A DNA stretch of 22,199 nt. It comes from a virus. The first letter of the stretch is position 1. Every line of letters begins with the position of its first letter. Shown here piece by piece: positions 1 through 14,105 of this stretch. The stretch is from positions 1 to 22,199 of the IMG/VR virus record IMGVR_UViG_3300028844_002685, one strand, 5' to 3'. A program made the translations under genes and the position numbers. A model generated the notes under the pieces. That model saw only the letters and a program-made list of their open reading frames with translations, did no database searches and was not told where the DNA came from.

Positions 1-3000
1 AAGCAGCGCAGGTGCTCGGCAACCTGATTGCGTCTTCAGATGAAAACCCAGGCAAGGTCACCATTGCAGGTAATAAGGGCAAATCAAAAGTAATTGACCT
101 TACCGACAACGACTTTCAGCAAGCGAAGAAAGGCGATGAAGGCGCAGGTGCCATTGGGCACGGTGTTCTTCAGGAGCACGCTAAGGAATTCTTTGATGGC
201 GATGACGACGACGTTATTGACTCTTTTCGTCTTGGCGACGAGGGTCCAGAAGTAGACCCAGATAACTTCAATCAGTTGTCTTGGAGTACAAAGGATAAGA
301 CAGACCCAAACAAAAAGAATGAGCACACATTAAACATTCCTAAAGCGCCTAAGATGGAATCGCCGCTGACTGATCCGACCGCTTCGGGTACTTCACGCAA
401 CATGGCTCGCATGGGGCAAGCGTCTCGTGTTATCGATGAATCTGGCGCTAAGAACTTAGTAACAGGCGCTCTGAAAGCGGGTGGGCCTAAAGGCCAAGCC
501 GTGGCAACAGGCATAGACGGTAGTTTGGCCGCAGCGCAGTTCGTTGGTGATTACGGACCAATGGCTGACAAGGTTATGGGACCAGGCGTTAGGCGCGCTT
601 TCTATCGTTACAGCGGTAAAGAAAAGACGCCTGAAAAGGCAATGGTCAACACCATGCGCGCTGACGTTCGGGGAACGGAGTCACCTCAAGAAGCGCGCGA
701 TGCCATCTTTGTGCCACGCATGGAGACCAAAGTTACGTCTGAGGGTTACGAAGACGTACCTGTGCCTAGCAAGACGATGCGGTATTGGCAGAAGAAACTG
801 CCAGATGTTGAACTACTGAATCTGCACACTTCCTCTGGCGCTACACCTCCTAGCGAGGGTGTCATTCTGGACAAAAACGGCAAAGCAGTAGCGATGTCAG
901 TGGGTAGCCACGATGACCATTACCTGCCTTTCAACCTCAAGAGAATGAACCGGGCCAAGGGCGGAGAGTACATTCGTACTCGTTCCTTGGGTGGTTTGAC
1001 TAGCGAGGATATTGATGGCGGCATCATTGGCGGTACCAAAGGTGTAACCGTTGTGTCGCACAGTGGCGTTTTCACCATGCAGTTCTCGCCAAGTGGCAAA
1101 GGTTCGCTATCTAAAGCGCGTCGCATGAAAATGCGTAAGCGTTACGAGCAATTGGTTGATTCGCTTGCATCCAAGAAGGTCAACGTCGGTCAGGTGCCTA
1201 AAGACCGTAGAGATGAGTTGCAGGCACAAGTTGAGCGTCAGATGCCTGGTACTACCGCTGGTGTTGTTAGGCAGCGTAAAGCAAGGATGCACGATCTGCT
1301 GAAACAAGAGCAAGAGACACCACAGCCCAGCACAGAGCGTAAGGCCGAGTGGACTGAGGAATTCTTGCGTCAGCAGGGCGAAGAGTGGACTGACAAGGGC
1401 GGGGAAGAACTTGGCGCAGATCAACTACGCGAGGAAGTACGCGCTCAGGCTCGTAGGAGAAAAGATAAGACCCTACGCAGCGATGAAGAGATCATCACCG
1501 AAATGGGTGCGTCTGACAAATACGAGAAGTTCATGCGCCAAAAAGAAGGTGAATACAGCACCGCTCTTGGACCGCTACGCACTAATGGCGCTGGTTACTA
1601 CAAAGCGATGCAGGCTCTTAAAGAGCAGTTCCCTTACGACATTGCTGAAGTCAACTGGACACCGCCGGATTCGACTAGCGTTGGCTCTGGCGCTACCGAT
1701 CCTGGCTATGTGAAGGCTAAGCACAATCGGCCTGACAAAGTTCTGACTGGTTTCTGGGATTCAGAGATTGAGGGCCAGAAGAACACCAAGGGCAAACTCA
1801 AGGGAACAGGCAAGCGCAAGGCTTCTGCTGATAACTACGCCAACTCTTTCAACAGAGAACGCTTACGCAACATCAAGGATGAAGGGGCTGATGCTGGCCC
1901 AAAAGGTGAGGGCGGCAGCGCCGCCAGCGCCAGTTCAAGCGTTAGCGACGACGATGTAAGTTACGGCGGTGGGGGCGAGGGTTACGAGGGTTACACCTCG
2001 TCAGGTATTACTTCAGGCAGGCTAGGGCCGAAATACAGCCAGTTCCGGCCAATGGAGAGTGCCAAAAATATCCAAATGACTGAGTACCAGAAGGTAGATC
2101 AGTTGATGAAGATTCGGCGTGCCCTAAAGAACGTCGGAACTATCACTTACATTCAGACTACTGGGAATGGAAAAGAGAAGGTAACTTTCGATCCCTGGGA
2201 TACCGATAGCGATTCTAACCAGACAGCAAACGACAACTACCCGAACCTGTTTGCTCCCATGAGCAATGGCGACTTCGATGAAAAACTGCAAACCGATGAG
2301 GAATTTGCAAACAAAGTTCAAGAAGAAGTCCAAAGCCTTTACCAAAACAGTCAGAAGAGTGATCGCGGTATTGCACAACCTCTTGCTCGTAAGTTGTCAG
2401 AAAGACAACTCTTTGATGGTCTTGTTGTTGTAGACGGCAAGGCAGTAGGTGCTGCCAAGAACCCAACTACCGCTTTGAGTCTGGTCAATTCGCTGCAAAG
2501 CGGAGAACCTTCTAACTGGGACTTCACTTCAGGCGACTTGGACGGAAGCCTGTACTTGCCTGGACTAGCCCAACGTGAGCACAGAGCAGCATGGCACGCT
2601 GATTCGGACATTGAAACTTTCGCCGCACAGTCGCAGCGACGCTTTGGCATTGAGATTACCGACAAGACCGACCCGCGCACTATTCGTCGCATGTCAGTGA
2701 AGTTCGGTGACGCAATGCGCGAGGGCTTGGATTCGGTAGCCAAGTGGAAGAAGCAGATCGCTGAGGCAGGTGGGCGCGCTGAAGAGGTCAGTGACCAGTC
2801 TCTAGTCAAGTACGGCGGTGAGACATACTCCATGTTTGCCGCTAAAGAACTTGAAAACCAGATTGCTCAAGACGCTTTGGGCATGGCGAAGATCAAGCAG
2901 TTGCGCCAGGTCATTCGTGAGTCTAGTGAGAAGGAATACGAAGACAACGAAGAGATGAAAGAAATCTCTATCGAGGACATCAAGGAGATGCGATACGAGG

Positions 3001-3929
3001 ATCATCAGCGCGATCCACGGCTCGTTGGCTCGCTCAAGACACCTAAGCGCGGTACTAACCAGAAGAAACTGGACTCTGCCAAGCAGAACTTGGACAAACT
3101 TGTTGGCTTGGGTGAGGTGAAGGGCGAACTAGACTCTCTTATCTCTGACGCTAAAGTGAGCGCTCAGCGTAAAGATCAGGGCTTGAAGAGCAGCAACAAG
3201 ACGATGCACTTGGTCTTCACTGGCAATCCCGGTACTGGTAAGACCACCGTTGCTAACGAACTAGCGCGCGCATACAACGCTCTTGGCCTGATTCCTAGTG
3301 ACAAGGTAGTAGTGGCTAGCCGAGCCGATCTCGTTGGTCAGTACGCCGGTCACACCGCTACCAAGACGCGGAGTAAGTTCAACGAAGCCAAGGGTGGCGT
3401 TCTGTTCATTGACGAGGCGTACTCACTGGTAAACAGCAACGACGACACTTTCGGCTTTGAGGCTGTGGATGAGTTGGTTGCTCAGTCTGAGAACAACCGT
3501 GACAACACTGTGGTCATTATGGCTGGCTACAAAGACGACATGGGGCGCTTGATGGGTGCCAACCCAGGCTTGAAGTCACGCTTCCCACGCACTATCGACT
3601 TCCCTGACTACAAAGCAGGTGATCTGAAAGAGATTCAGGCTCGTGGTGTTAAAGAGGCTGATTACGAGTACTCAGGTGGCGTAGAAAGCAAACTAGAATC
3701 CATAACGCGCAAGATGGTGAATCAGCCCAATTACTCCAACGCGCGTGATGCTAGGAACTTCCGCGAGATGATGTTCAGCGCGCAAGCACAGCGCGTCAAC
3801 CGTGACTTTGGTGACAATGCCACCAGGGAACAACTCATCACTATTACCCCAGAAGACGTAGACATCGCTGAGAAAATGTACTTCAAGCAACGCACAGGCG
3901 GCATTACTAAACGTTTGGAACGAATATGA
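1..3929 (+). CDS. Giant phage head-module protein with C-terminal CbxX/EccA-type AAA+ ATPase (5' partial)
   Basis: The frame is open to the window edge and codes Ala-Ala-Gln before the first internal GTG (12), so the true start is probably upstream. Numbering from that GTG gives 1305 residues. Residues 1060-1220 form a full CbxX/CfxQ AAA+ domain: Walker A GNPGTGKT (1071-1078, Lys1077), pore loop GQYAGHT (Tyr1111), Walker B VLFIDEAYSL (Asp1134, Glu1135), sensor 1 VVIMAGY (1167-1173), and NPGLKSRFPR with the likely Arg finger at 1190. The family includes EccA of type VII secretion and Rubisco activase CbbX, ring ATPases that remodel proteins. Residues about 265-375 (SEGVILDKNG, DDHYLPFNLK, RTRSLGGLTSEDI) look like a conserved phage region of unknown role. 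A Gly/Ser-rich linker lies near 633-670. It overlaps the next gene by ATGA. The role in the virion is unknown; an injected or assembly-related remodelling ATPase is inferred. ATPase domain very sure; function uncertain. Confidence 0.85.
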   Translation, partial: AAQVLGNLIASSDENPGKVTIAGNKGKSKVIDLTDNDFQQAKKGDEGAGAIGHGVLQEHAKEFFDGDDDDVIDSFRLGDEGPEVDPDNFNQLSWSTKDKTDPNKKNEHTLNIPKAPKMESPLTDPTASGTSRNMARMGQASRVIDESGAKNLVTGALKAGGPKGQAVATGIDGSLAAAQFVGDYGPMADKVMGPGVRRAFYRYSGKEKTPEKAMVNTMRADVRGTESPQEARDAIFVPRMETKVTSEGYEDVPVPSKTMRYWQKKLPDVELLNLHTSSGATPPSEGVILDKNGKAVAMSVGSHDDHYLPFNLKRMNRAKGGEYIRTRSLGGLTSEDIDGGIIGGTKGVTVVSHSGVFTMQFSPSGKGSLSKARRMKMRKRYEQLVDSLASKKVNVGQVPKDRRDELQAQVERQMPGTTAGVVRQRKARMHDLLKQEQETPQPSTERKAEWTEEFLRQQGEEWTDKGGEELGADQLREEVRAQARRRKDKTLRSDEEIITEMGASDKYEKFMRQKEGEYSTALGPLRTNGAGYYKAMQALKEQFPYDIAEVNWTPPDSTSVGSGATDPGYVKAKHNRPDKVLTGFWDSEIEGQKNTKGKLKGTGKRKASADNYANSFNRERLRNIKDEGADAGPKGEGGSAASASSSVSDDDVSYGGGGEGYEGYTSSGITSGRLGPKYSQFRPMESAKNIQMTEYQKVDQLMKIRRALKNVGTITYIQTTGNGKEKVTFDPWDTDSDSNQTANDNYPNLFAPMSNGDFDEKLQTDEEFANKVQEEVQSLYQNSQKSDRGIAQPLARKLSERQLFDGLVVVDGKAVGAAKNPTTALSLVNSLQSGEPSNWDFTSGDLDGSLYLPGLAQREHRAAWHADSDIETFAAQSQRRFGIEITDKTDPRTIRRMSVKFGDAMREGLDSVAKWKKQIAEAGGRAEEVSDQSLVKYGGETYSMFAAKELENQIAQDALGMAKIKQLRQVIRESSEKEYEDNEEMKEISIEDIKEMRYEDHQRDPRLVGSLKTPKRGTNQKKLDSAKQNLDKLVGLGEVKGELDSLISDAKVSAQRKDQGLKSSNKTMHLVFTGNPGTGKTTVANELARAYNALGLIPSDKVVVASRADLVGQYAGHTATKTRSKFNEAKGGVLFIDEAYSLVNSNDDTFGFEAVDELVAQSENNRDNTVVIMAGYKDDMGRLMGANPGLKSRFPRTIDFPDYKAGDLKEIQARGVKEADYEYSGGVESKLESITRKMVNQPNYSNARDARNFREMMFSAQAQRVNRDFGDNATREQLITITPEDVDIAEKMYFKQRTGGITKRLERI

Positions 3930-4720
3930 TTTCCGCATTCGGAGTAGAGCACGGAGATTCTATCTCCAAAGCGGCTCTCTACGAAAACTACACAGAGGGT
4001 TTGCGTCGTCAGGGCGGCGTGCTTAATGAGGCAGCCATTCATAACATTCCGAGGAACAAATACAAGCGCGCTGGTAACAACGTGTACGCAAAAGAACGTA
4101 AGTTAGTCGGAAGACGGAATTCCAAAGAATACGTTAAGCAGACTGTTGCCGACAATAAGGGCAGCAAGAACAAACTTTATGTCAAGACAGGTTACGCCGG
4201 TAACTTGGCTGGCCTAAGAGGTCTGACTACAGGCAGCCAGGAACACAAGACTGCAAAAATTGATGCTTACCCGGCCCTGATGCCCACTGCTAAGAATCGC
4301 CTCAAGACCAAATACATTGCTACTCACGAGCATCAGCACGCTAAGGATATGGCCGGTCAAAAACATTACGACAAAGACATTAAGAACGCCAAGGCTTATG
4401 GCAACAAGCAAGTCAAGCCGGGCAAGAACAAATTTACCGACACCTTAAAAGACTTTAAGCGCACGAAGCATTTCAACGAACAAATGCAGCGAAATCGTGC
4501 GGTGTTGGAAGGAAAGGCCGATAAATCGGCTTCCCAGAAGCACCAAATGCCTGCGTGGAAGGCTTCTGCCTACCCACACATGGCACGCAACGATAAGAAG
4601 ATATTCGGCGCTGGTTATGTCAAGGGCGGCGGTCAGCAAGTTCCAAAGAAGCGCGCAGAGAGAAAAGCAGGCAGGCAGAGTTTCAAGGAAGCGGTGCTTC
4701 GAGAAAAGGGCAATAGGTGA
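3926..4720 (+). CDS. Basic protein with HExxH zinc-metallopeptidase (zincin-like) motif
   Basis: 264 residues, strongly basic. Residues 134-138 read HEHQH within YIATHEHQHAKD, matching the HExxH zinc-binding and catalytic motif in a helix-like setting preceded by hydrophobic residues. A second motif, VLEGKAD (Glu195), lies 57 residues after the last His and resembles the 'EGxAD' element that supplies the third zinc ligand in gluzincin-type peptidases. The rest is Lys-rich and looks poorly ordered, especially residues 225-264. The start ATG overlaps the stop of the AAA+ gene (ATGA), and the stop overlaps the GTG of the MuF gene (GTGA), so the three genes are probably translationally coupled. 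Packaged zincins occur in phage polyvalent proteins; here a protease that is packaged, or that processes head or host proteins, is inferred. I do not recognise a named family, and a non-catalytic structural role remains possible. Confidence 0.72.
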   Translation: MISAFGVEHGDSISKAALYENYTEGLRRQGGVLNEAAIHNIPRNKYKRAGNNVYAKERKLVGRRNSKEYVKQTVADNKGSKNKLYVKTGYAGNLAGLRGLTTGSQEHKTAKIDAYPALMPTAKNRLKTKYIATHEHQHAKDMAGQKHYDKDIKNAKAYGNKQVKPGKNKFTDTLKDFKRTKHFNEQMQRNRAVLEGKADKSASQKHQMPAWKASAYPHMARNDKKIFGAGYVKGGGQQVPKKRAERKAGRQSFKEAVLREKGNR

Positions 4721-6558
4721 AGTTAGTAGCAGTTGCCAACCCCGACAAGATTGAAAGCGTTCCTTCAACATCTGGTCGGGTAACCAAACTTGCTAAACAA
4801 CTCAATATGGCCTTCCTCGTTTATCGAGGGCTGATGTCTGATGAACTCAAAAAGGTAGATGCACCAGTCGAATCTAAGTCGGCTGCCAAAGCATTGCTGG
4901 AAGCAGAAGACCGCATTAAGAACTACTGGTCGCATACCTTCTCACCTAATATCAAAGCCGGACTGAAAATACACGGGCTTGATAACGACACCGCTTCCGT
5001 CATGGCTGGTAAGTACGCCGGTAAGTTGGCGGAGACAATCAACGAAGTCTCAGACCGTGCATTCATTGAGGGCTACAACGCTGCCCTGAACAAGAATTGG
5101 GAAAAGGCAGTCGCTTGGAAGCGTATTGCTGATGCTTACGGTCTTGATCCTGCTCAGATGCGTAAGTGGATTACTTATTACCCGGAAGATGGCTACCACC
5201 CAGACGAGATACCAACCAAGTCAAAGGACTTGCTCGACACGCTACTTGGTGAGCGCGGAAAACGTATTTCGGAAAATGAAGCCTGGACTGTGAAGAACAT
5301 AGGCAAGCAGGCTGCGTGGGAAAAGAAAATTCGTAGCGGCAAGTTACCCACAGGTATTAAGAAAGTTTGGCGTACTGCTGAAGACGAGATGGTATGTGAC
5401 GTTTGCGGTCCTCTGAACGGAACGGTCGTTTCGGTAGAGAACGAGTACGACGTTTCTGAGGGAATGTCATTCTTTGTTCCGCCACTGCACGTTAATTGCC
5501 GCTGCGACATCGAACTAGAAGAGTTTGAGATCGTTACCAAGTTTGATAAATACAAGAGGGACAAGGGCGGTCAGTTCTCTAGCGTTGAGTCGCGCGGAGC
5601 CAAAACACCCGATACTCCCTTCACGCGGTCTAACAGCATTACCAGAACCGGACAAAGCCAACCCACCAAGGTCAGCGCCGGACAAACCAAAGTAGTCGTG
5701 CAGGAGCGTGAAAAGAAGAAACCCCCCTATCGATCAGAAATGGTTATCGGTACTAACCTCAACAAAGCACTCAATGATTTCAAGGTCGATGAGAAGCAGC
5801 AAAAGAAACTTTTAGTAGCAGCAAGGCAAAATCAAAAACCGCTGACTAAAGAGCAAAAAGCGGCAAAGGTTAACCACCAAAAAGCCCAAAATAAGATCGT
5901 GCATTTGCTCAAGGAAGAGCAGCAAGGCAAGGAAGTTCAGCAAGAACTAAATTTTGCTGTTGCTGAAGCAGTAGAGGCAAAGAAAGGCGTCAAGGAAGCA
6001 AAGGGTTTGGAACAGTCTATGGCTGTTCCGGCGAAAGGTTTTGAGCAATTAATTGGTGAACTTGGTCCTACCGAAACAGGCGACACTGTTGATCTGGGGC
6101 AGATAGACCCAGAGGCGCTAACGCATTTTAAGATGGGCGAAGAGTCTCGTTGGGAACACGAAGACCTTTTGCCTACGACTTTTGGCTGGAACGAAGACAT
6201 ACAACTAGCGGCAAAAGATGACGAAATAATTGCCTCAAAGCAGTACGAAGCGGGCCATTCGGTGTTGCAAGGAACCCATTCTGAATACATGGATGGCATT
6301 ACTGGGAGTGGAGTTGGTGTTGTGGTGATCGCAAGTGGCTCGCCTGTTGAAATGGTTGATGGTCAAATTGTCGGTTTTAGCGGCGAATACGAAATAGAAA
6401 AGTTTGTTGCCGAGCCTGGTGAAAACCTTCACAGAGACACAGACGTTGAATGGTACGACCCGAACAACGATTTTAATTACTCGGCAATTACCGAGCAAGT
6501 AAACGAAACGGATGAGGCTTTTACTCTGACTCTGTTACGGCCTTTTGGCACAGATTAG
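4717..6558 (+). CDS. MuF-type minor head protein with extended C-terminal domain
   Basis: 613 residues. GTG start overlaps the upstream stop; GAAAAGGG six bases before it is a good ribosome site. Residues about 1-270 match the phage Mu gpF (SPP1 gp7-like) minor head family: helical region, then the Cys/His signature CDVCGPLNG (Cys227, Cys230) and PPLHVNCRC (His258, Cys261, Cys263). These proteins sit inside the procapsid near the portal and help DNA entry or exit. After it comes KYKRDKGGQFSS (278-289), a phage linker motif of the 'RDxxGxF' kind, then a Lys/Gln/Glu-rich, probably coiled linker to about 420, and a distinct acidic C-terminal domain (about 425-613) with a hydrophobic strand (533-539) and SGEYEIEK (555-562). 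MuF proteins often carry C-terminal toxin or enzyme domains; this one weakly suggests an ADP-ribosyltransferase end, unproven. MuF assignment sure, extension uncertain. Confidence 0.88.
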   Translation: MKLVAVANPDKIESVPSTSGRVTKLAKQLNMAFLVYRGLMSDELKKVDAPVESKSAAKALLEAEDRIKNYWSHTFSPNIKAGLKIHGLDNDTASVMAGKYAGKLAETINEVSDRAFIEGYNAALNKNWEKAVAWKRIADAYGLDPAQMRKWITYYPEDGYHPDEIPTKSKDLLDTLLGERGKRISENEAWTVKNIGKQAAWEKKIRSGKLPTGIKKVWRTAEDEMVCDVCGPLNGTVVSVENEYDVSEGMSFFVPPLHVNCRCDIELEEFEIVTKFDKYKRDKGGQFSSVESRGAKTPDTPFTRSNSITRTGQSQPTKVSAGQTKVVVQEREKKKPPYRSEMVIGTNLNKALNDFKVDEKQQKKLLVAARQNQKPLTKEQKAAKVNHQKAQNKIVHLLKEEQQGKEVQQELNFAVAEAVEAKKGVKEAKGLEQSMAVPAKGFEQLIGELGPTETGDTVDLGQIDPEALTHFKMGEESRWEHEDLLPTTFGWNEDIQLAAKDDEIIASKQYEAGHSVLQGTHSEYMDGITGSGVGVVVIASGSPVEMVDGQIVGFSGEYEIEKFVAEPGENLHRDTDVEWYDPNNDFNYSAITEQVNETDEAFTLTLLRPFGTD

Positions 6559-6568: not shown

Positions 6569-7570
6569 ATGGACGATATTCTTCCCGAGGTAATTGATTA
6601 CCTTTTCGATGGGTATGCCACGGTCTCCAAGTCTTCCCCTGATAGTGCCGATACACACGTTCCAAAGCCAATGAAGATGAAGCAGTACAAAAGGAAGAAG
6701 CGTGAAGTCGAATTCGGCCTAGCAAACAACGCTTTTGGTGCTGCTGCGGGAGCAGGCGCTACTACTACTGCTTACAAAGTGGCGCGTGACAATTACAAAA
6801 AGGCCACAGCATCGGAAGCGTCGAAAAAGGCGGCAGCAGATAAGTTATATGCCAAAAAGTTAAAAATTCCTTTTACTGGCAGCAAAAAGTTGGGTAAACC
6901 TAACAAGGCAATTCCATACGGAAGAGCACTCAAGAAACTGAAGCCCCATCATGCTATCGCTGGTGCTGGCGCAATGGCTGTTGGTTCGCAGTTAGTCAAC
7001 GGCGGAATGGATGCTCAGTCAGGCGGATACTTCCTCAAAGAGCGTCTGAAAATGAGGAAACCTAAGCAGAACAAGATCAAGAAGACTCTAGATCAAAAAC
7101 TGCTGTACGAAGCCATCGTCAAGGACATCAACCCTGTTTTTGATAACGGTGAAGACGTTGAGTGGTCTGGCGAGTTCTCTAAGGTGGATACCGAGAAGCG
7201 TCAGGTATTCGGCTGGTGCTCGCTAAACAAAGTCAACGGCGAAGAGATTATCGACCGTCAGGGCGACTACATTCCCCTAGACGAGATTGAAAAGTCTGCC
7301 TACGACTACGTTATCCACTCCCGCAAAGGCGGGGACATGCACAAGCGGGATGGCGAAGAACCGCTCAAGACTTCTGACTTGATTGAGTCGTTTGTGGTTA
7401 CACCGGAGAAACTAGAACAATTGGGTCTGGAACAAGACGCTGTGCCGCATGGCTGGTGGGTTGGATTCAAGGTCAACGACGATGACCAGTGGGAAGCCGT
7501 CAAGAAAGGCGACCGTCGTCACTTCAGTATTCACGGTAAAGGCAAGCGCGTAGAGAAGAGGATGCGATGA
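6569..7570 (+). CDS. XkdF-like (S78-type) prohead protease with long Gly/Ala-containing N-terminal region
   Basis: 333 residues. Residues about 198-333 match the phage serine protease XkdF family (putative S78-like maturation proteases of PBSX-type phages): FSKVDTEKRQVFGWCS (203-218), DRQGDYI, an Arg-rich segment before MH (His258), LIESFVV (Ser274), PHGWWVGFKV and FSIHGKG. His258 and Ser274 are the likely catalytic pair. Such proteases trim scaffold and capsid during head maturation. The first ~195 residues are unusual: a basic region with two short Gly/Ala-rich hydrophobic segments (about 49-69, including GAAAGAGATTTA, and 128-146, including AIAGAGAMAVG) separated by about 60 basic residues. 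The same layout recurs in the products at 7567 and 13170. It may be an internal virion protein released by self-cleavage. It lies between MuF and scaffold, as expected for a protease. Protease assignment sure; role of the N-terminal part unknown. Confidence 0.88.
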   Translation: MDDILPEVIDYLFDGYATVSKSSPDSADTHVPKPMKMKQYKRKKREVEFGLANNAFGAAAGAGATTTAYKVARDNYKKATASEASKKAAADKLYAKKLKIPFTGSKKLGKPNKAIPYGRALKKLKPHHAIAGAGAMAVGSQLVNGGMDAQSGGYFLKERLKMRKPKQNKIKKTLDQKLLYEAIVKDINPVFDNGEDVEWSGEFSKVDTEKRQVFGWCSLNKVNGEEIIDRQGDYIPLDEIEKSAYDYVIHSRKGGDMHKRDGEEPLKTSDLIESFVVTPEKLEQLGLEQDAVPHGWWVGFKVNDDDQWEAVKKGDRRHFSIHGKGKRVEKRMR

Positions 7571-7965
7571 ACAAAAAACAACTGACTCTCACTGAACGAC
7601 GCGACATTGAGCGCACATTACCGAAAAGCAAAAAGCGTCAATCAACTTTGTCTCGTACCGCCGGAATAGGCGGGCTTACTGCCGCTGGTGGATTAGCAAC
7701 CGCCGCTATTATTCGCAGACCTGGGATGGTTAATCCTAAGAACCTTAGAAAAGTTCCTGGCGCGGTAAGGGGACTCAAGGGGAAGAAATTGAAAGCACCT
7801 GACCTTTCTACGCCAGAGAAGAGAGCAAAAGTCGCTGACAGTATTAAGGACAAGTCATTCATTCTCGGTAGTAGTGCTGCTGCTGTTGGCGGTTTTGGAA
7901 GTCTTAACTTTGCTTCTGTGCAAGGTAAGGAAGCAAAACTGGGCGCTTCTAAGAAAAAGCTCTGA
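7567..7965 (+). CDS. Small basic protein with two Gly/Ala-rich hydrophobic segments, function unknown
   Basis: 132 residues, very basic. ATG overlaps the protease stop (ATGA), with GAAGAGG just upstream as ribosome site. Two short apolar Gly/Ala segments are visible: residues 31-49 (GIGGLTAAGGLATAAII) and 97-118 (ILGSSAAAVGGFGSL), joined by about 48 basic residues. The GxxxG-like spacing suggests glycine-zipper helices that may pack together or insert in a membrane. There is no cleavable signal peptide: the N-terminus is charged (MNKKQLTLTERRDIER). The layout repeats that of the N-terminal part of the preceding protease and the C-terminal part of the protein at 13170. I recognise no family. 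A minor internal head protein or ejected protein is inferred from position and layout. Confidence 0.7.
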   Translation: MNKKQLTLTERRDIERTLPKSKKRQSTLSRTAGIGGLTAAGGLATAAIIRRPGMVNPKNLRKVPGAVRGLKGKKLKAPDLSTPEKRAKVADSIKDKSFILGSSAAAVGGFGSLNFASVQGKEAKLGASKKKL

Positions 7966-8027
7966 TTTTGACTCAAAATACTGTTGCCAGATAAGACAGA
8001 ATAAATACTGACCGGAAAGGTAAGGAC

Positions 8028-8891
8028 ATGCCGAAGCCTGTTAAAGAGTTGCGGGACATGGAAATTGACGAGATTTCTCTCGTTGATCGCCCTGCTGCTC
8101 AACATGCAGAGGTAGTTATTACCAAGCGGGCTACCGAGGAGGATATTGTGCCCGAAGATATTTATAACGAGGAAGGCGAACTACTAGACGTAGATTTGCT
8201 TGATACGGGCGATGTCGTCTTTGACGAAGATGGTGATGCCTTCCTCGTAGTTGATGACGAGATGGAAGATGAGTACGAGGTGGTCGGTAAGGCCGCTGCG
8301 GCTCCTGACTACCCCGAAGAAGAGGGTGCAAGCAAAAAGGAAATCCTTCGCGCTAAGTTGCTCGCTCAGAAGAAGAAGCAGATGGAGGAAGAGGGCGTGA
8401 AGAAGTCATTTTCAGACGAACTCCGCGAGGAATTGTCCAAGTCCTACAGCGACGCTGACCGTGACGAGGTAATCGCTAAGGCGCTTGCCGAGGTTGACGA
8501 GATGGCTTCCTTCGCTGCTGAGGCTGAGGAAGTTGCCAAGTCAGAGCGCGATCTTCGACTGTCCCGCGAGTACGAAGACGTTGCTAAGTCTTACAACCTC
8601 CCCGTAGATGAGGAAGAACTCGCGCCGGTCCTGATGGCGATTGCCGAAGAACTTCCTTACGAGTACGGAGCAGTTATCCACAAGGCTCTCTCCGCCGCTG
8701 GCGAGATCATCTTCGATGAGATCGGCACCGAGGGATATGCCACTAACAACGACGTTCTCAATGCCGTCGATTACTACATCAACGAGAACATCTCAAAGGC
8801 TGACATCTCCAAGGCTGAGGCCGTAGAAGCAGTGTTTGATGAAAACCCAGGAGCGTATGACGAGTACATGGCTACTCGGTACGGCTACTAA
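8028..8891 (+). CDS. Capsid scaffolding-like protein
   Basis: 287 residues, acidic. ATG 8028 follows GGAAAGGTAAGGA, a good ribosome site. The N-terminus (ELRDMEIDEISLVDRPA at about 7-23, then VVITKR) is the typical opening of proteins encoded next to XkdF-type proteases. Then comes a very Asp/Glu-rich stretch (about 35-90), and a helical, charged region with KSFSDELREEL, DVAKSYNLPVDEEELAPVL and a C-terminal segment rich in short helices ending in PGAYDEYMATRYGY. This pattern matches the putative scaffolds found between protease and capsid genes in many siphophages. Scaffolds direct capsid assembly from the inside and are removed or cleaved by the protease encoded upstream. The position, just before decoration and capsid genes, agrees. 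An alternative is a second protease-family protein, but I see no His/Ser pair like that of the upstream gene. Confidence 0.75.
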   Translation: MPKPVKELRDMEIDEISLVDRPAAQHAEVVITKRATEEDIVPEDIYNEEGELLDVDLLDTGDVVFDEDGDAFLVVDDEMEDEYEVVGKAAAAPDYPEEEGASKKEILRAKLLAQKKKQMEEEGVKKSFSDELREELSKSYSDADRDEVIAKALAEVDEMASFAAEAEEVAKSERDLRLSREYEDVAKSYNLPVDEEELAPVLMAIAEELPYEYGAVIHKALSAAGEIIFDEIGTEGYATNNDVLNAVDYYINENISKADISKAEAVEAVFDENPGAYDEYMATRYGY

Positions 8892-8910
8892 AAGAAAGGA
8901 TTGAGTAGTC

Positions 8911-9318
8911 ATGGCATATGAAGAAGGATTGCGGTCTATCACGCTAGTAGCGGATTCGACCCTAGCCGCTTACACCGGAGTACCGGGTCTGCCCGGCTCA
9001 CCGTCGCCGCATGGCGCTAACCAGTATTGCTTCGTGCGAGTCACTGGTGCCAAGCAGGTTGGGCTGGCTGATGAGTCAACTCCGACCGTTGGTGTGTTGC
9101 AGAACAAGCCGCAGACTAATGGCTCTGCTGCAACTGTAGCCATTCGTGGTGTGTCTAAGTGTGTTGCTGGCGGTGCTGTTAACGCTGGTGATTCGGTCAA
9201 GGTCAACGCCGCTGACGGCAAGGCCGTTACCGGAACGGGCACTGACACAATTGTTGGAATCGCTCTTACAAGTGGCTCGGCAGATGAGATTATCTCCGTG
9301 CTCCTGAGTGTGAACTGA
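8911..9318 (+). CDS. Capsid decoration (DUF2190-like) protein
   Basis: 135 residues, small, beta-rich and Gly/Ala/Val-rich. The internal pattern (VGVLQNKPQTNGSAATVAI, then GGAVNAGDSVKVNAADGKA, then a final VGIAL and SVLLSVN) is that of the DUF2190 / phage cement protein group, which binds the outside of the mature capsid and stabilises it against internal DNA pressure. The ribosome site AAGAAAGGA lies about ten bases upstream of ATG 8911. The gene sits directly before the major capsid gene, the usual place for decoration proteins. No signal peptide or membrane segment is seen. Confidence 0.78.
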   Translation: MAYEEGLRSITLVADSTLAAYTGVPGLPGSPSPHGANQYCFVRVTGAKQVGLADESTPTVGVLQNKPQTNGSAATVAIRGVSKCVAGGAVNAGDSVKVNAADGKAVTGTGTDTIVGIALTSGSADEIISVLLSVN

Positions 9319-9334
9319 GAATAGGAGATAGAAA

Positions 9335-10333
9335 ATGCCAAGTCCGGCACAGAGCGATCTTCATGTCAACGCGCCGTTGACCAATGTATCGGTCGCTTAT
9401 ATCCAGAATACGGCTGACTTTATTAGCAGCAAGGTATTCCCGAAGGTGCCAGTAAAGAAGCAGTCTGATCTTTACTGGAAGTACAGCAAGTCCGACTGGC
9501 GACGTACCGACGTTGCGAAGCGTGCTCCATCAACCGAGACCCCAGGTGTCGGCTGGAAAATGGATACCGACACGTACTTCGCGCATGTGTACGGCGTTCA
9601 CAAAGACATTGACGATCAGGTTAGGAGCAATGCGGATTCCAACTTCCGGGTTGATTCCGATGCGACCAAGTTCGTCACCAACCAGTTGTTGCTGAAGCGC
9701 GACATTGACTGGACTGACCGTTTCTTCCAGACTGGCGTTTGGGATACGGAATTTGCTGGTGTGGCTAGTGCGCCCGCTGGTCCTCAGTTCCTACAGTGGA
9801 GCGACGATGCTAGCGACCCCATCAACGATGTGTCGAAGTGGGTAATGGATTTCCGTCAGTTGACGGGCTACACCCCCAACACCATCGTTGCGGGAGCGCA
9901 GGTGATTCGGGAACTCAAGAACCATCCCGACATCATCGACCGGATCAAGTACACCCAGCGCGGCATTGTGTCGGAAGACCTGATCGCCACGCTGTTCGGT
10001 GTAGATAAGATTCACACCGCTCTTGCTACCAAGGCTGTCACTCCTGAGACCACCGACGCACGGACTCAGGATGCAGCGGCAACTTACGAGTTCATCGCTG
10101 ATGAGCGTTCGATGTTGCTGTGCTACTCCGCACCGTCGCCGAGCCTGATGACTCCGACTGCGGGTTACACCTTCACTTGGGACGGTTACGCTGGCGGCAA
10201 CGCTGAAGGTATCCGTATCAAGAACTTCCGCCAGGAGCACATTGCTTCTGACCGGATCGAGGGTGAGATGACCTACGACATGAAGGTTGTCGCCCCCGAC
10301 ATGGGGATTTTTGCTACCTCGGTAGTTTCATAA
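9335..10333 (+). CDS. Major capsid protein
   Basis: 332 residues. The N-terminus (LHVNAPLTNVSVAYIQ), then FISSKVFPKVPVKKQSDLY and KRDIDWTDRFFQTG, match a widespread phage major capsid group presumed to have the HK97 fold. It forms the hexamer and pentamer shell of the head. AGGAG about seven bases before ATG 9335 is a strong ribosome site, and the strong terminator just after the stop suggests a highly expressed message end. Neighbours agree: scaffold and decoration genes before, head-tail connector genes after. No N-terminal delta domain of the fused HK97 kind is apparent, consistent with a separate scaffold gene. Confidence 0.93.
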   Translation: MPSPAQSDLHVNAPLTNVSVAYIQNTADFISSKVFPKVPVKKQSDLYWKYSKSDWRRTDVAKRAPSTETPGVGWKMDTDTYFAHVYGVHKDIDDQVRSNADSNFRVDSDATKFVTNQLLLKRDIDWTDRFFQTGVWDTEFAGVASAPAGPQFLQWSDDASDPINDVSKWVMDFRQLTGYTPNTIVAGAQVIRELKNHPDIIDRIKYTQRGIVSEDLIATLFGVDKIHTALATKAVTPETTDARTQDAAATYEFIADERSMLLCYSAPSPSLMTPTAGYTFTWDGYAGGNAEGIRIKNFRQEHIASDRIEGEMTYDMKVVAPDMGIFATSVVS

Positions 10334-10341
10334 CTGAATAG

Positions 10342-10378
10342 GGGAGGCTGGCTCGTTTGGGTCAGCCTCCCTTTGTTA
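10342..10378 (+). terminator. Rho-independent terminator after the capsid gene
   Basis: GGGAGGCTG (10342-10350) pairs perfectly with CAGCCTCCC (10363-10371). Four further pairs, two of them G-U type, extend the stem to 13 with a GTTT loop (10355-10358). TTTGTTAT follows directly. The next ribosome site begins only six bases after the T-rich run, leaving no room for a promoter, so downstream genes probably depend on readthrough. Confidence 0.85.
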
Positions 10379-10383
10379 TATCT

Positions 10384-10389
10384 AGGAGG
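10384..10389 (+). promoter_or_regulatory. Perfect AGGAGG ribosome binding site
   Basis: AGGAGG ends five bases before ATG 10395, the strongest Shine-Dalgarno match in the window. It fixes the start of the small protein downstream of the terminator. Confidence 0.75.
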
Positions 10390-10394
10390 CACAC

Positions 10395-10766
10395 ATGGCA
10401 CGCAAGCAACCTGTTGGATATGTCGTTAGACGACCGATGACGCTGTGGGGAAAGAAGCGCGAGATCGGTGACATTATCAAAGTCGAAGACAACAAGCGTT
10501 CACGCTCACGCTTTGATACCTTGGTCCGTGCCGGTCGCCTCAGTGAGATTTTTGACGAGACCGATAAGGGTCTAGTCGTTAAGGGACGTACCCGCCAAGA
10601 AGGTGAAGTCTTCTCACTCGACGAGAAGCCGAAGGCCAAGGCTAAGGCCAAGCCCAAGGCTGCGCCGAAGGCCAAGGACAAGGCTAAGGCTGCACCGAAG
10701 GCCAAGGATGAACCGAAGGCCGAGGAGTCCACCGAGAAAGCCACTCGTGGTCGTCGTTGGGCGTAG
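10395..10766 (+). CDS. Small virion-associated protein with Lys/Ala/Pro-rich tail
   Basis: 123 residues. Residues 1-52 form a compact domain (MARKQPVGYVV, LW at 17-18, IGDII at 24-28, AGRLSEI near 46-52). The same domain opens the 770-residue protein encoded next, so the two genes share an ancestor. The C-terminal half (about 77-120) is a low-complexity Lys/Ala/Pro tail encoded by degenerate AAGGCC and AAGGCT triplet repeats, including a 24-base near-identical repeat. Such tails are flexible and can bind nucleic acid or acidic surfaces. The gene begins straight after the terminator following the capsid gene. The stop is TAG, and the frame continues for 21 sense codons to TAA at 10832 (see separate entry). 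No named family recognised; a minor head or neck protein is inferred. Confidence 0.75.
   Translation: MARKQPVGYVVRRPMTLWGKKREIGDIIKVEDNKRSRSRFDTLVRAGRLSEIFDETDKGLVVKGRTRQEGEVFSLDEKPKAKAKAKPKAAPKAKDKAKAAPKAKDEPKAEESTEKATRGRRWA
10656..10709 (+). repeat. Tandem repeat coding the Lys/Ala/Pro tail
   Basis: A 24-base unit at 10656-10679 recurs at 10686-10709 with one difference inside and one at its end (30-base period). Shorter AAGGCC/AAGGCT units flank it. This is the kind of repeat that changes length by slippage, so tail length may vary between relatives. Confidence 0.7.
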
Positions 10767-10832
10767 TGGTGGTCGGAACTGAAGGTGGCTAAGAAGCCAG
10801 TCAAAAAGACTGAGGACGAAAAGACTGAGTAA
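10767..10832 (+). other. In-frame Lys/Glu-rich extension after a TAG stop (possible readthrough tail or tiny ORF)
   Basis: Directly after TAG (10764-10766) the same frame stays open for 21 codons and ends at TAA 10830-10832. It would add a tail ending VAKKPVKKTEDEKTE, similar in composition to the tail of the upstream protein. A GTG at 10785 could also start a 15-residue peptide, with GGAACTGAAG weakly resembling a ribosome site. It may be leaky readthrough, a decayed longer C-terminus or chance. Low certainty. Confidence 0.25.
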
Positions 10833-10834
10833 CT

Positions 10835-13147
10835 ATGGCTAGACGAATCCCGTTAGGGTACATAGTCGTCCAGCCTTTTCATCTGTGGGATACCAATTTT
10901 GGTATTGGCGACATCATCGCGTTTGATGAAATCAGGTCGCAAGAGCGCCTGCAAATTCTGTTCAATGCTGGCGCGCTAGAGATTGCCTATAAAGAAGCAG
11001 ACAAGGTATCTGTCTTCTACAACCGTGAATCGCGGCGAGACGAAGACAAAGACGGTACTTTCCCGCTCGGCTCTCTCACCAGTATCAAATCTACGTCTCG
11101 CGTATCAGACGTAGAAGTAATACAGCCCATGATTGTTGATCTGAACAGTTTCTTTAGGTTTTATTACCGGCAAGGTGCTGTTGTTGCCGACATCACAGTT
11201 GTTGTAGTGCCAGTCATCAAGCCTGAGTCCATTGAGTCCGCGAGTACCGTCTCAGACATCAGTTTCGGCACAACGTCCTACGTCGATGTACCGTCAATCA
11301 CCACTACAGCGCGCGTCAGTGGAATCACTGTAAAAGCGGGCATTGGCGTTGATGTCACATCAGTGCCTATGAGTTGGTGGGTAAATAACGTCGAAATTGC
11401 TAAGCGCGTGAATGTTGACAGCATTGCGCCTTTGAGTGCAGTCAGCGACATTAAGCGCACCAAGGAGATCACGCTTGAGTCAATACCGTCTACCGCTGCT
11501 GTATCTAGCATCACCTTTGGTATTACTCAGATCGTTGTGACCGTTAGTATCCCTAGCGCGCACTATGTCAACGATGCGTCCTTCATCAAGCAGGTTGAGC
11601 CTGACTCCATCGCTGCTCGCTCGTCAGTGTCGAGCATTGTTGCCGCACTTGCTCAGCAGATCACACTGTCGTCTGTGATACCTGTGACGACGATTTCAGA
11701 CATAGGAATCGACAAATTCAGAACGGTAACCAGCATCAGCGGAACCTCTAGAGTCTCTAGCGTCAGTTCAATGAGTTCTGTCGTTGCTGACCTGCACAGC
11801 ATCACCAGTACCGCAGTGGTCTTAGACATCACTACTGTGCTGAGCAAGCAGGTCTTTGCTATCTCTGTATCTAGCGAGGTGAGGGTTTCTGATGTCAGTT
11901 ATGCCACCAGTATTGTCGTTGCTGCTACGAGCGTTCCTCGCGTTGCAGACGGTGTAGAAAATGTTTCCATCACCAAGATCGCTGATGTTGATTCAGTACC
12001 TTCTGTATCGTCAGTCAGTAACGTCGTAGGACTAACGAGCGTTATTGCCGATCTGACGAGCATAGGTTCAACTGCATCTGTGTCAGGGATATTCATTGCA
12101 GGCGCAGCGATCATTACCCCAGTGGGCATACCGAGCACTTCAACAGTCTCGTCTGTCACTGTCGCAGTACCGACAGCAGTAGATGTAACGTCCGTGTCGA
12201 CCACAGCAAGTGTGGCAGACGTTACCTACAACAAGTCCAAGATCGTACAGACAACATCAGCCGTCAACGCAGCCATAGTGTCAGATGTTGTCATCATCCA
12301 GCCCATTCTAGTTGTACTACAGCCACGAGCACCTACGTCAACGGTCACGGATATTGCCGTGACCAAAATTGCGCTTCAAGTTTCACTGTCTTCAACTGCG
12401 TCAGTATCAAATGTATTTGTAGTAGTAGCACCCATAATCAATGCAGTCAGCATTCCTAGCACCGCTAGCGCGTCATCCGTCTTCGTAGTGAAAGCGCCAA
12501 GGGCCTATCTCACCTCGATTGCCAGCACCGCAACAGTGGCAGATGTGTCTTGGGAGAAGAGTCAAAGCCAGATAGAAGTAGATGCGACTTCAGCAGCAAC
12601 CACAATGTCCTTGTCTGACCCGTCATGGGAAGGGACTGAATTGGTGAGCGTTTCGTTGTACCCCACAGGACACACTGGTAGTCCGACTGCGACTACTCCG
12701 CTTGAAAATTCTTATGGCCCGCCCAATGACTTGTGGACTTCAAGTCCAACTAGCAACTGGCGTGTTCGTTGGACATTTACTATTCCTATGGGTGATCGTC
12801 CTGGCACAGTATTTGAGACAACTGATGACATTCAGACTGTGACGATGCTTGCGAGAAAAGCCGCTAGTGGCGCAAATAATCCGCGCCTTAGATACATGAG
12901 ATATTTCCAGGGCAACAGTTCTAAATACCAAGACGGAACCGTAACGAATCTTACTGATGCCAACTCTATTCCAGACGGATTAGAAATCGTGAGGACGTTT
13001 TCTACCGCCAATGGAACCCTGAATGACTTCTCCGACCTTGGTATCGACACCCAATACAATAAGCGCGGTAGGAATGCCAACCTGCGTGTTGCTGAGATGG
13101 ATTGGATCAGATGGGACGCGGTTTACAGGTTACGCTGGCCTCTGTAG
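10835..13147 (+). CDS. Large repeat-containing virion fibre protein, probably head-anchored
   Basis: 770 residues in three parts. Residues 1-52 (MARRIPLGYIV, LW at 17-18, GIGDII at 23-28, AGALEIA near 45-51) are homologous to the start of the preceding 123-residue protein. Residues about 80-583 hold roughly 23 copies of a ~22-residue repeat with the pattern S-[IV]-x-S-T-A-x-V-S-x-[VI]-x-[VFI], for example SIPSTASASSVFVV and SIGSTASVSGIFIA. The alternating apolar/polar pattern suggests short beta strands building an elongated shaft. Residues about 584-770 are a different domain rich in Trp, Tyr and Asn (LYPTGHTGSP, WRVRWTFTIP, RYMRYFQG), possibly a receptor- or glycan-binding tip. It lies between the capsid and head-tail connector genes, away from the tail-tip genes, so a capsid fibre is inferred; a tail fibre cannot be excluded. 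Confidence 0.75.
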   Translation: MARRIPLGYIVVQPFHLWDTNFGIGDIIAFDEIRSQERLQILFNAGALEIAYKEADKVSVFYNRESRRDEDKDGTFPLGSLTSIKSTSRVSDVEVIQPMIVDLNSFFRFYYRQGAVVADITVVVVPVIKPESIESASTVSDISFGTTSYVDVPSITTTARVSGITVKAGIGVDVTSVPMSWWVNNVEIAKRVNVDSIAPLSAVSDIKRTKEITLESIPSTAAVSSITFGITQIVVTVSIPSAHYVNDASFIKQVEPDSIAARSSVSSIVAALAQQITLSSVIPVTTISDIGIDKFRTVTSISGTSRVSSVSSMSSVVADLHSITSTAVVLDITTVLSKQVFAISVSSEVRVSDVSYATSIVVAATSVPRVADGVENVSITKIADVDSVPSVSSVSNVVGLTSVIADLTSIGSTASVSGIFIAGAAIITPVGIPSTSTVSSVTVAVPTAVDVTSVSTTASVADVTYNKSKIVQTTSAVNAAIVSDVVIIQPILVVLQPRAPTSTVTDIAVTKIALQVSLSSTASVSNVFVVVAPIINAVSIPSTASASSVFVVKAPRAYLTSIASTATVADVSWEKSQSQIEVDATSAATTMSLSDPSWEGTELVSVSLYPTGHTGSPTATTPLENSYGPPNDLWTSSPTSNWRVRWTFTIPMGDRPGTVFETTDDIQTVTMLARKAASGANNPRLRYMRYFQGNSSKYQDGTVTNLTDANSIPDGLEIVRTFSTANGTLNDFSDLGIDTQYNKRGRNANLRVAEMDWIRWDAVYRLRWPL
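11072..12583 (+). repeat. About 23 diverged ~66-base repeats coding the fibre shaft
   Basis: At protein level the unit starts with Ser-Ile/Val and ends 20-22 residues later in an aliphatic-rich stretch. The DNA copies are well diverged, so this is an old expansion under protein-level constraint rather than a recent duplication. The second unit is longer (about 30 residues) and atypical. Confidence 0.75.
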
Positions 13148-13169
13148 ACATAAGACGTATCTTTGATAC

Positions 13170-14105
13170 ATGGGACATAGGCTCGTCTTCTACGAAGATC
13201 GCAGCACGCCACAGGTCGTGGGCGAAAAAGGTAGCGCCAAGTCTAAAGAAGGATATGGAAAAGTCAGCCATAGTCGTCCTGCTAATGCCGAGGAAGAGAA
13301 AACTATCGCTCGCGGTGGCTGGGTAAGAGTGGACTCTAAAGGCAATAAGCCTTCATCTGCTTCATATAAAGCCTCTTCGTACAGGCCACAATTAGGTGCC
13401 AAGCGTCGTGCAACCAATGCAAAAATCGCCAAAATGTTTGGCATGGGCAAAATTATGCGTCCCGCTACTAGCGCACCTAAACCACCAGCATCTCCTAAAC
13501 CAATGGCGAAACCAAACGGTTTTCAGAAGCCAAAAGCGTTGCTGCCAATGAATGCACAGCCAAAACAAATGGCTCAGCAAATGAAAAACCAAACTCAAAA
13601 ACTAAACTCTGCACCTAAAGAAAGTACTTTAGATACTGGCGTGAAGACTTTTCGACAAGCCCAGGCTGGTTACGGAAAGAAGAAGCAAGGCGACACCCTA
13701 AAGACAGGGATTCAGACTTCTTTTTCTAAGACAGAAAAAATGCCAGAAAAGTACGCCGCAGCATTACCTAGCGCCACAGTGAAGGCTTACGACAAGTCAA
13801 CAAAGAACAGGAAAGAGGCTGCCGCTAGTACTTTGGCAGCAAAAGTAGGTGGTGGCGCGCTAGGTGCAGTAGCGGGTTACGGAATTTACCGCGCTGGCAA
13901 GGGAAAGACGAAGACGTTGCATAACGCATCTGTTATCAAAATCCCTGGCAAAAAGCGCCTAGTTCATGTCTCTGCTGATAAAAAACAGGGAATGGCTTCA
14001 TCAACAGCAACTTCATTAGGGGGTAGCATTGGTGGGTACATTGGTAGTAGAAAATCGTTAGACAAAGTGAAGTCTGACCGCAAATACGGTTACCGTGATA
14101 ACTAG
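13170..14105 (+). CDS. Basic low-complexity protein with C-terminal paired Gly/Ala segments, function unknown
   Basis: 311 residues, very basic. ATG 13170 comes right after an in-frame TGA and has no clear ribosome site; a GTG at 13218 in the same frame is an alternative. The first ~215 residues are rich in Lys, Pro, Gln, Ala and Ser (SAPKPPASPKPMAKP near 93-108) and look disordered. Residues 219-240 (AAKVGGGALGAVAGYGIY) and 275-292 (ASSTATSLGGSIGGYIG) are two glycine-zipper-like apolar segments separated by about 35 basic residues. The same layout occurs in the products at 6569 and 7567. A minor virion or ejected internal protein is inferred. A lysine-rich DNA-binding role is also possible. 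No family recognised. Confidence 0.65.
   Translation: MGHRLVFYEDRSTPQVVGEKGSAKSKEGYGKVSHSRPANAEEEKTIARGGWVRVDSKGNKPSSASYKASSYRPQLGAKRRATNAKIAKMFGMGKIMRPATSAPKPPASPKPMAKPNGFQKPKALLPMNAQPKQMAQQMKNQTQKLNSAPKESTLDTGVKTFRQAQAGYGKKKQGDTLKTGIQTSFSKTEKMPEKYAAALPSATVKAYDKSTKNRKEAAASTLAAKVGGGALGAVAGYGIYRAGKGKTKTLHNASVIKIPGKKRLVHVSADKKQGMASSTATSLGGSIGGYIGSRKSLDKVKSDRKYGYRDN

Follow-up and report, generated by a model that had tools for sequence, protein, structure and literature searches.

Encapsulin cargo-loading peptides are short terminal peptides that sort cargo into an HK97-fold shell, a role like the one suggested here for a peptide tag at the ends of many phage head proteins. Among phages, T4 has variable basic internal proteins with 10–19-residue N-terminal capsid targeting sequences, which the prohead protease removes before the proteins are delivered to the host (PMC9026906). 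Capsid targeting peptides have been detailed only for T4 and inferred for giant myophages; of the latter, SPN3US processes numerous inner-head proteins, and a transmembrane segment is predicted in one of them (PMC5694885). Head-internal proteins that exit with the DNA are also described for phage P1 (DarA, which is trimmed by the prohead protease, and Hdf; PMC12810830), and the ejection proteins of P22 and T7 (review PMC8954989) combine an internal location with a host-envelope role, both of which had been proposed for products of the locus analysed below.

The window, that is, the whole 22.2-kb stretch of DNA that was analysed, a viral sequence of IMG/VR type from an uncultivated bacterial virus, has its genes co-oriented through a head module, as read from its open reading frames together with Pfam and PHROGs. 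Their order is 12–3929, 3926–4720, 4717–6558, 6569–7570, 7567–7965, 8028–8891, 8911–9318 and 9335–10333, all on the plus strand; the module includes a MuF-type minor head protein (4717–6558; Pfam PF04233, E=3.5e-7), a scaffold-like acidic protein (8028–8891), a small head protein (8911–9318) and the major capsid protein (MCP; 9335–10333; phrog_1005, E=2e-82). Adaptor and tail genes lie 3' of the MCP gene, the series closing with a long open frame interpreted as a tape measure protein. Directly upstream of the head genes, 12–3929 encodes a 1305-residue protein with a C-terminal AAA ATPase and AAA_lid_6 (CbbX/EccA type); in some relatives (L011, L013) the AAA ATPase is encoded by a separate gene. 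The 770-residue product of 10835–13147 contains many degenerate repeats of the kind SIPSTAxVSxVxV and has neither a Pfam or PHROG match nor a homologue among the related loci.

A preliminary description of this DNA had singled out three basic products, starting at 6569, 7567 and 13170, each with two Gly/Ala-rich apolar segments joined by basic residues. The coordinates and translations of the three products and the positions of all six segments agree with that account, which had recognized neither the protease identity of the 6569 product nor the end tag reported below. As single queries, the three proteins gave no match in IMG/VR and, among cultured phages, either none or one to the protease domain only; relatives were instead gathered with the MCP, yielding 80 IMG/VR loci at 63–70% identity. 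Genes were called as simple open reading frames, and the loci overlap and include near-copies, so that the counts below are not those of independent events. The contigs of L025/L032 (105,652 bp) and L027/L030 (135,953 bp) each carry two near-identical MCP loci, reflecting either genomes joined in assembly or a duplicated head module. By MCP, the nearest cultured phages (Arthrobacter, Microbacterium, Pseudomonas) are about 43% identical, and a host scan of genomes matched only unplaced MAG contigs from scattered phyla (Acidobacteria, Bacteroidetes, Bacillota, Nanopelagicales).

Composition-keeping shuffles identify the basic-linked Gly/Ala pair as non-random in the protease extension of the 6569 product and in the 7567 product (P<0.001). 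The 13170 pair misses a strict requirement for charge-free segments because a lysine interrupts the first of them, yet for the C-terminal domain the lengths of its two longest charge-free runs remain unusual (P about 0.003). The feature recurs among about 80 IMG/VR contigs that encode a related capsid protein: of 959 plus-strand genes of related loci, 74 contain a basic-linked pair against 5.4 expected from shuffling; it is present in 43 of the 86 genes that start 2–4 kb upstream of the MCP gene, in 0.5% of those more than 4 kb downstream, and in none of the 161 genes of six loci from cultured phages that share this capsid lineage.

The first pair, here called type A, belongs to an XkdF-like prohead protease of 333 residues (6569–7570, plus strand), whose Peptidase_S78_2 domain spans residues about 202–330 (Pfam PF14550, E=7.7e-18, 65.1 bits against a curated cut-off of 24) and which also matches PHROG head maturation proteases; Foldseek returned nothing significant for the protease model. 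The candidate catalytic His and Ser are H258 and S320, both unchanged throughout an alignment of 23 homologues. The pair sits in an N-terminal basic extension, where segment 1 (6713–6775, residues 49–69; FGLANNAFGAAAGAGAT at 49–65) and segment 2 (6950–7006, residues 128–146; AIAGAGAMAVGSQLV at 129–143), both on the plus strand, coincide with AF2 helices predicted at low confidence for residues 37–95 and 126–161. It is conserved in at least 30 loci between an N-terminal stretch, FxEVAxLLFGxG...KxxPxQSD, and the protease domain. Moreover, the type A profile matches four non-protease proteins lying outside its training set, L019:7515-8636 (E 6e-18), L011:7864-8502 (5e-17), L013:7385-8494 (1.5e-14) and L054:6826-8286 (7e-11), the best reversed-sequence match being 0.23. 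At these four loci the protease has 232–269 residues and no pair, and the pair is carried by a separate head-module gene; type A is thus a separable unit.

The second pair stands alone in a 132-residue protein with a pI of 11.4 (7567–7965, plus strand), which among the 33 members of a family encoded in the head region (type B) is the shortest complete one; the family profile has no minus-strand match and reversed-sequence matches only at E values of at least 0.017. Segment 1 (7657–7713, residues 31–49; TAGIGGLTAAGGLATAAII), which is backed by the family alignment, lies within a predicted helix at residues 8–50, and segment 2 (7855–7920, residues 97–118; SFILGSSAAAVGGFGSLNFASV) within another at 83–130, both segments being on the plus strand; for the 7567 and 6569 products alike, AF2 yields two helices per protein at low confidence (pLDDT 64 and 61, respectively). 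The family follows the consensus MSDxEIRRRKKxQGxISxTTGTLGLTALG...K...GIGGVGxFNFASYTxAESRKR, with G36, G108, G109, N114 and A116 invariant and G106 nearly so. Most members exceed the 7567 product in length and have further Gly/Ala units or C-terminal portions; the segment count varies between two and about eight per protein. The notion that these are DNA-condensing, histone-like proteins, whose Gly/Ala stretches would separate basic DNA-binding parts or pack as helices between them, suits their pI of 10–11.4 and the occurrence of one to many tandem units, as in the 1145-residue protein of L043; in type B, however, conservation is highest in the Gly/Ala segments, unlike what spacers would show, and the basic linkers differ both in sequence and in length; we regard this role as improbable.

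Some of the related proteins have features of their own. Residues about 170–290 of the L043 protein (L043:5269-8706), which has no Pfam match, appear by eye to include an ADP-ribosyltransferase-like stretch, LYRGLS...SSFTEN...REWV, that would parallel T4 Alt. A Cys-rich, possibly metal-binding N-terminal module, MCxSCxCGCKPGxPxKGCxCxCKxCxxAR, occurs on different hairpin or tag-bearing proteins (L011:12022, L014:3484, L037:4243).

The third pair ends a larger protein of 311 residues with a pI of 10.4 (13170–14105, plus strand), within a conserved domain (residues about 173–311) that defines a nine-member family, type C, formed by the 13170 C-terminus and eight relatives and marked by VPDxxxxxLPASTVRAYDxS ahead of the pair. 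Its segments map, on the plus strand, to 13824–13889 (residues 219–240; region 217–240 reads AAASTLAAKVGGGALGAVAGYGIY, with the lysine inside) and 13992–14045 (residues 275–292; MASSTATSLGGSIGGYIGS at 275–293), and in several loci the domain occupies an equivalent position behind the MCP. Residues 1–75 of the 13170 product (NAEEEKTIARGGWVRVDSKG...) are absent from the type C relatives and match no family. Searches of PHROGs and Pfam return no match for the 7567 or 13170 product and so show no sequence similarity to T4 internal proteins.

That all three pairs form one family, as had been put forward, finds partial support: types B and C look distantly related, and neither is convincingly linked to type A. 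In profile comparisons with hhalign, B and C align at 58–90% probability with a score of 30.4, against a column-shuffled null maximum of 17.2; the A–B score is 20.0 (probability 7.7%, over 18 columns only), and the A–C score falls within the shuffled null. A direct profile link between the 13170 product and type B was discarded, being drift in an iterative search with HMMER filters off and of compositional level with filters on and reversed-sequence controls; the B–C relation is accordingly drawn only from hhalign with column-shuffled nulls. The low complexity of Gly/Ala sequence, the moderate strength of the B–C link and a control in which type C matched its own reversal at 32% probability are what one would expect if the pairs were a compositional coincidence devoid of biological meaning, an explanation rendered extremely improbable by the excess of pairs over shuffled expectation, their concentration upstream of the MCP gene and absence from cultured relatives, and the specific conserved residues of the three families.

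Dozens of different head-module proteins of the group, most of them basic, share a second feature: a heptapeptide, SAFG[VI][DE]H, placed at the very start or end of the chain. Scanned for strictly as SAFG[VI][EDN]H, it has 139 copies in 39 loci and none on the minus strand; 96 are N-terminal, with the Ser as residue 3 in 85, and 36 lie within 19 residues of the C-terminus. The tagged proteins fall into 64 clusters, most of them small and basic and many with a Gly/Ala segment near the opposite end; many of the small ones close with one apolar Gly/Ala segment and a basic tail behind it, and many type B proteins are tagged at the C-terminus. Because the tag is encoded by 106 different 21-mers that vary at synonymous positions, a DNA repeat or regulatory element is ruled out and the tag must be a protein signal whose amino acids are kept. 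Seven of ten large contigs hold 3–8 copies, all on one strand and for the most part no more than 15 kb from the MCP gene, two of them having one copy about 23 kb upstream; the opposite strand has no tag, and reversed-pattern controls gave none. When 2.9 million viral contigs were scanned by DNA pattern, without recourse to the capsid gene, 47 stretches matched, and 45 of these contain genes of this phage group. The tag is present in both main branches of the MCP tree, and other subclades have variants (SVWGVDHG; E[KQ]x[FY]LVSKA) in which the SK core is kept. Its sequence was not found in the literature searched, and the terminal heptapeptide tag is previously unreported.

Within the window, the tag occurs on the basic 264-residue product of 3926–4720 (plus strand), which begins MISAFGVEHGDSISKA: SAFGVEH is encoded at 3932–3952 (plus strand, residues 3–9) and followed by ISKA at residues 13–16. 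An HEHQH (HExxH) motif makes this protein a candidate metallopeptidase-like cargo, an enzyme reading made by eye only since no Pfam family matches. The 7567 and 13170 products are themselves untagged, the latter having only SFSK where its relatives have the tag plus SK. In L107, L037, L114 and others, the type C domain is preceded by an N-terminal SAFG tag; the 13170 counterpart of L107, the closest relative (MCP 75% identity), begins MQSAFGVEHGSISKAE.

These observations bear on the earlier proposal that the three products are internal ejection proteins with glycine-zipper hairpins that could enter the host membrane or form the wall of a DNA channel. The internal head location receives indirect support: the three genes belong to the head module; the prohead protease, an enzyme at work within the procapsid, has one of the pairs fused to it; proteins related to the 7567 and 13170 products bear the terminal tag common to many head-module proteins; and all three products are basic, as T4 internal proteins are. 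Membrane insertion or channel formation fares less well and appears unlikely. In its favor are the paired apolar segments with two long predicted helices, the resemblance of the small tagged proteins with one Gly/Ala segment and a basic tail to tail anchors, and SPN3US gp47, a processed inner-head protein with a predicted transmembrane segment (PMC5694885). Against it, the hydrophobicity of the segments is modest, and a re-implemented insertion-energy formula places all six between +1.5 and +5.2 kcal/mol, no better than poly-alanine; spontaneous insertion is not predicted, so that a pore would need cooperative insertion. The linker and flanks are all basic and provide no simple positive-inside topology, and in siphophages it is normally the tape measure protein that serves for the channel. 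Nor is the label of glycine zipper justified: GxxxG spacing does not exceed what composition predicts (180 observed versus 203 expected in 274 segments).

In at least 129 of 132 cases, [IVLMF]xK comes within 14 residues after the tag, and in 91 it takes the form VSK, ISK or FSK; behind an N-terminal tag this motif, mostly VSK or ISK, is almost never missing. With tag regions removed, the motif [IVLMF][SE]K[AGSML] exceeds expectation by a factor of 14 in the scaffold, 6 in the protease family and 3.7 in type B, and it does not occur in the MCP or the adaptor-like 14525 family. The 50 scaffold homologues contain 148 motifs against 10.3 expected, a count to which helix repeats could partly contribute; the scaffold-like protein of the window has [ILV]SK[AS] motifs at 136 (LSKS), 255 and 260 (both ISKA). 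In the 6569 protease, FSKV (within WSGEFSKVD; 7175–7186, plus strand) opens the protease domain, with K205 invariant in the 23-row alignment, and is a candidate self-processing site. This distribution is the pattern expected for a prohead protease site, for which [IV]SK is a candidate. The product of L060:6914-8704 has repeated Y[ATV]GE[VMI][SG]K between hairpin units, resembling the start of the protease domain, WxGE[FI][SA]KxD, and may be a polyprotein cut by the protease.

The shared enrichment of the SK motif in scaffold, protease and type B would also suit modules that aid assembly, as self-associating hairpins forming an inner core for shell and protease, later removed or retained and with no part in the host. 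Fusion to the protease N-terminus, a location between the protease and scaffold genes and the effect of T4 IPIII on head assembly (PMC9026906) agree with such a function; a protease of close relatives that does without the module, a segment number of two to about eight, unusual for an essential core part, and cultured relatives of the same capsid lineage without the module do not, and we consider an assembly aid possible though not the likely answer.

Taken together, the Gly/Ala pairs are best explained as helical-hairpin modules of roughly 90–140 residues, with a predicted hairpin fold, that move between genes; in the window, one lies on the protease N-terminus, another forms a protein by itself and the third closes a larger protein. 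Computation directly shows that these modules exist, are conserved and are mobile, that the tag occurs and sits at protein ends, and that the motif is enriched. The three products are probably clade-specific basic procapsid proteins, kept in the head or delivered with the DNA like T4 internal proteins, a location suggested by gene context and sequence; as readings of their function, internal cargo or core protein is the probable one and a membrane pore an unlikely one, these readings being overlapping so that their likelihoods need not sum to one. In such a scheme, the tag, or fusion to the protease, would bring a protein to the scaffold or inner shell; the XkdF-like protease would then cut [IV]SK sites beside the tag and in the scaffold, as motif enrichment suggests; the freed basic hairpin proteins would stay with the DNA and enter the host; the hairpins might associate with one another, with DNA or, several together, with the host membrane. 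More tentatively, and with somewhat less than even confidence, this widespread uncultivated phage group may have its own delivery system, in which a tag at either end sorts exchangeable proteins into the capsid, for release by the protease and injection along with the DNA; the cargo would comprise basic hairpin proteins and the metallopeptidase-like protein, the hairpins serving as fusion-ready modules, even on the protease. A tag that can be read from sequence allows candidate packaged cargo to be listed for a phage group without a cultured member, makes internal or ejection proteins of siphophage-like virions directly testable, and offers both a testable address peptide for loading HK97-fold shells and, in the tagged set, candidate injected proteins.

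Compared with known systems, the group is most like T4, where IPI–IPIII and Alt are likewise variable basic head proteins with a short conserved terminal peptide and a phage-encoded prohead protease (PMC9026906): a short terminal peptide is common to different proteins here too (139 tags in 64 clusters; in the window, on the 3926 product only), with a candidate protease site just behind it. It differs from T4 in its Phage_cap_E/phrog_1005 capsid lineage and XkdF-type protease, in a peptide, SAFGVDHG...ISKA, that is also found at C-termini, and in its Gly/Ala hairpins, packaging and cleavage being predicted here from sequence; moreover, T4 and SPN3US prohead proteases cut after Glu, in contrast to the candidate SK site. 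SPN3US has long propeptides, most over 100 residues, and the part of its description consulted mentions no common terminal heptapeptide (PMC5694885). The P22 and T7 proteins belong to short-tailed phages and show no PHROG or Pfam relation to those described here, for which the membrane step is unsupported; P1 is a myophage, and DarA and Hdf have no evident sequence relation to the present proteins (no PHROG match). Finally, the encapsulin cargo-loading peptides (PMC7355545) differ from the tag in sequence and do not belong to phages.
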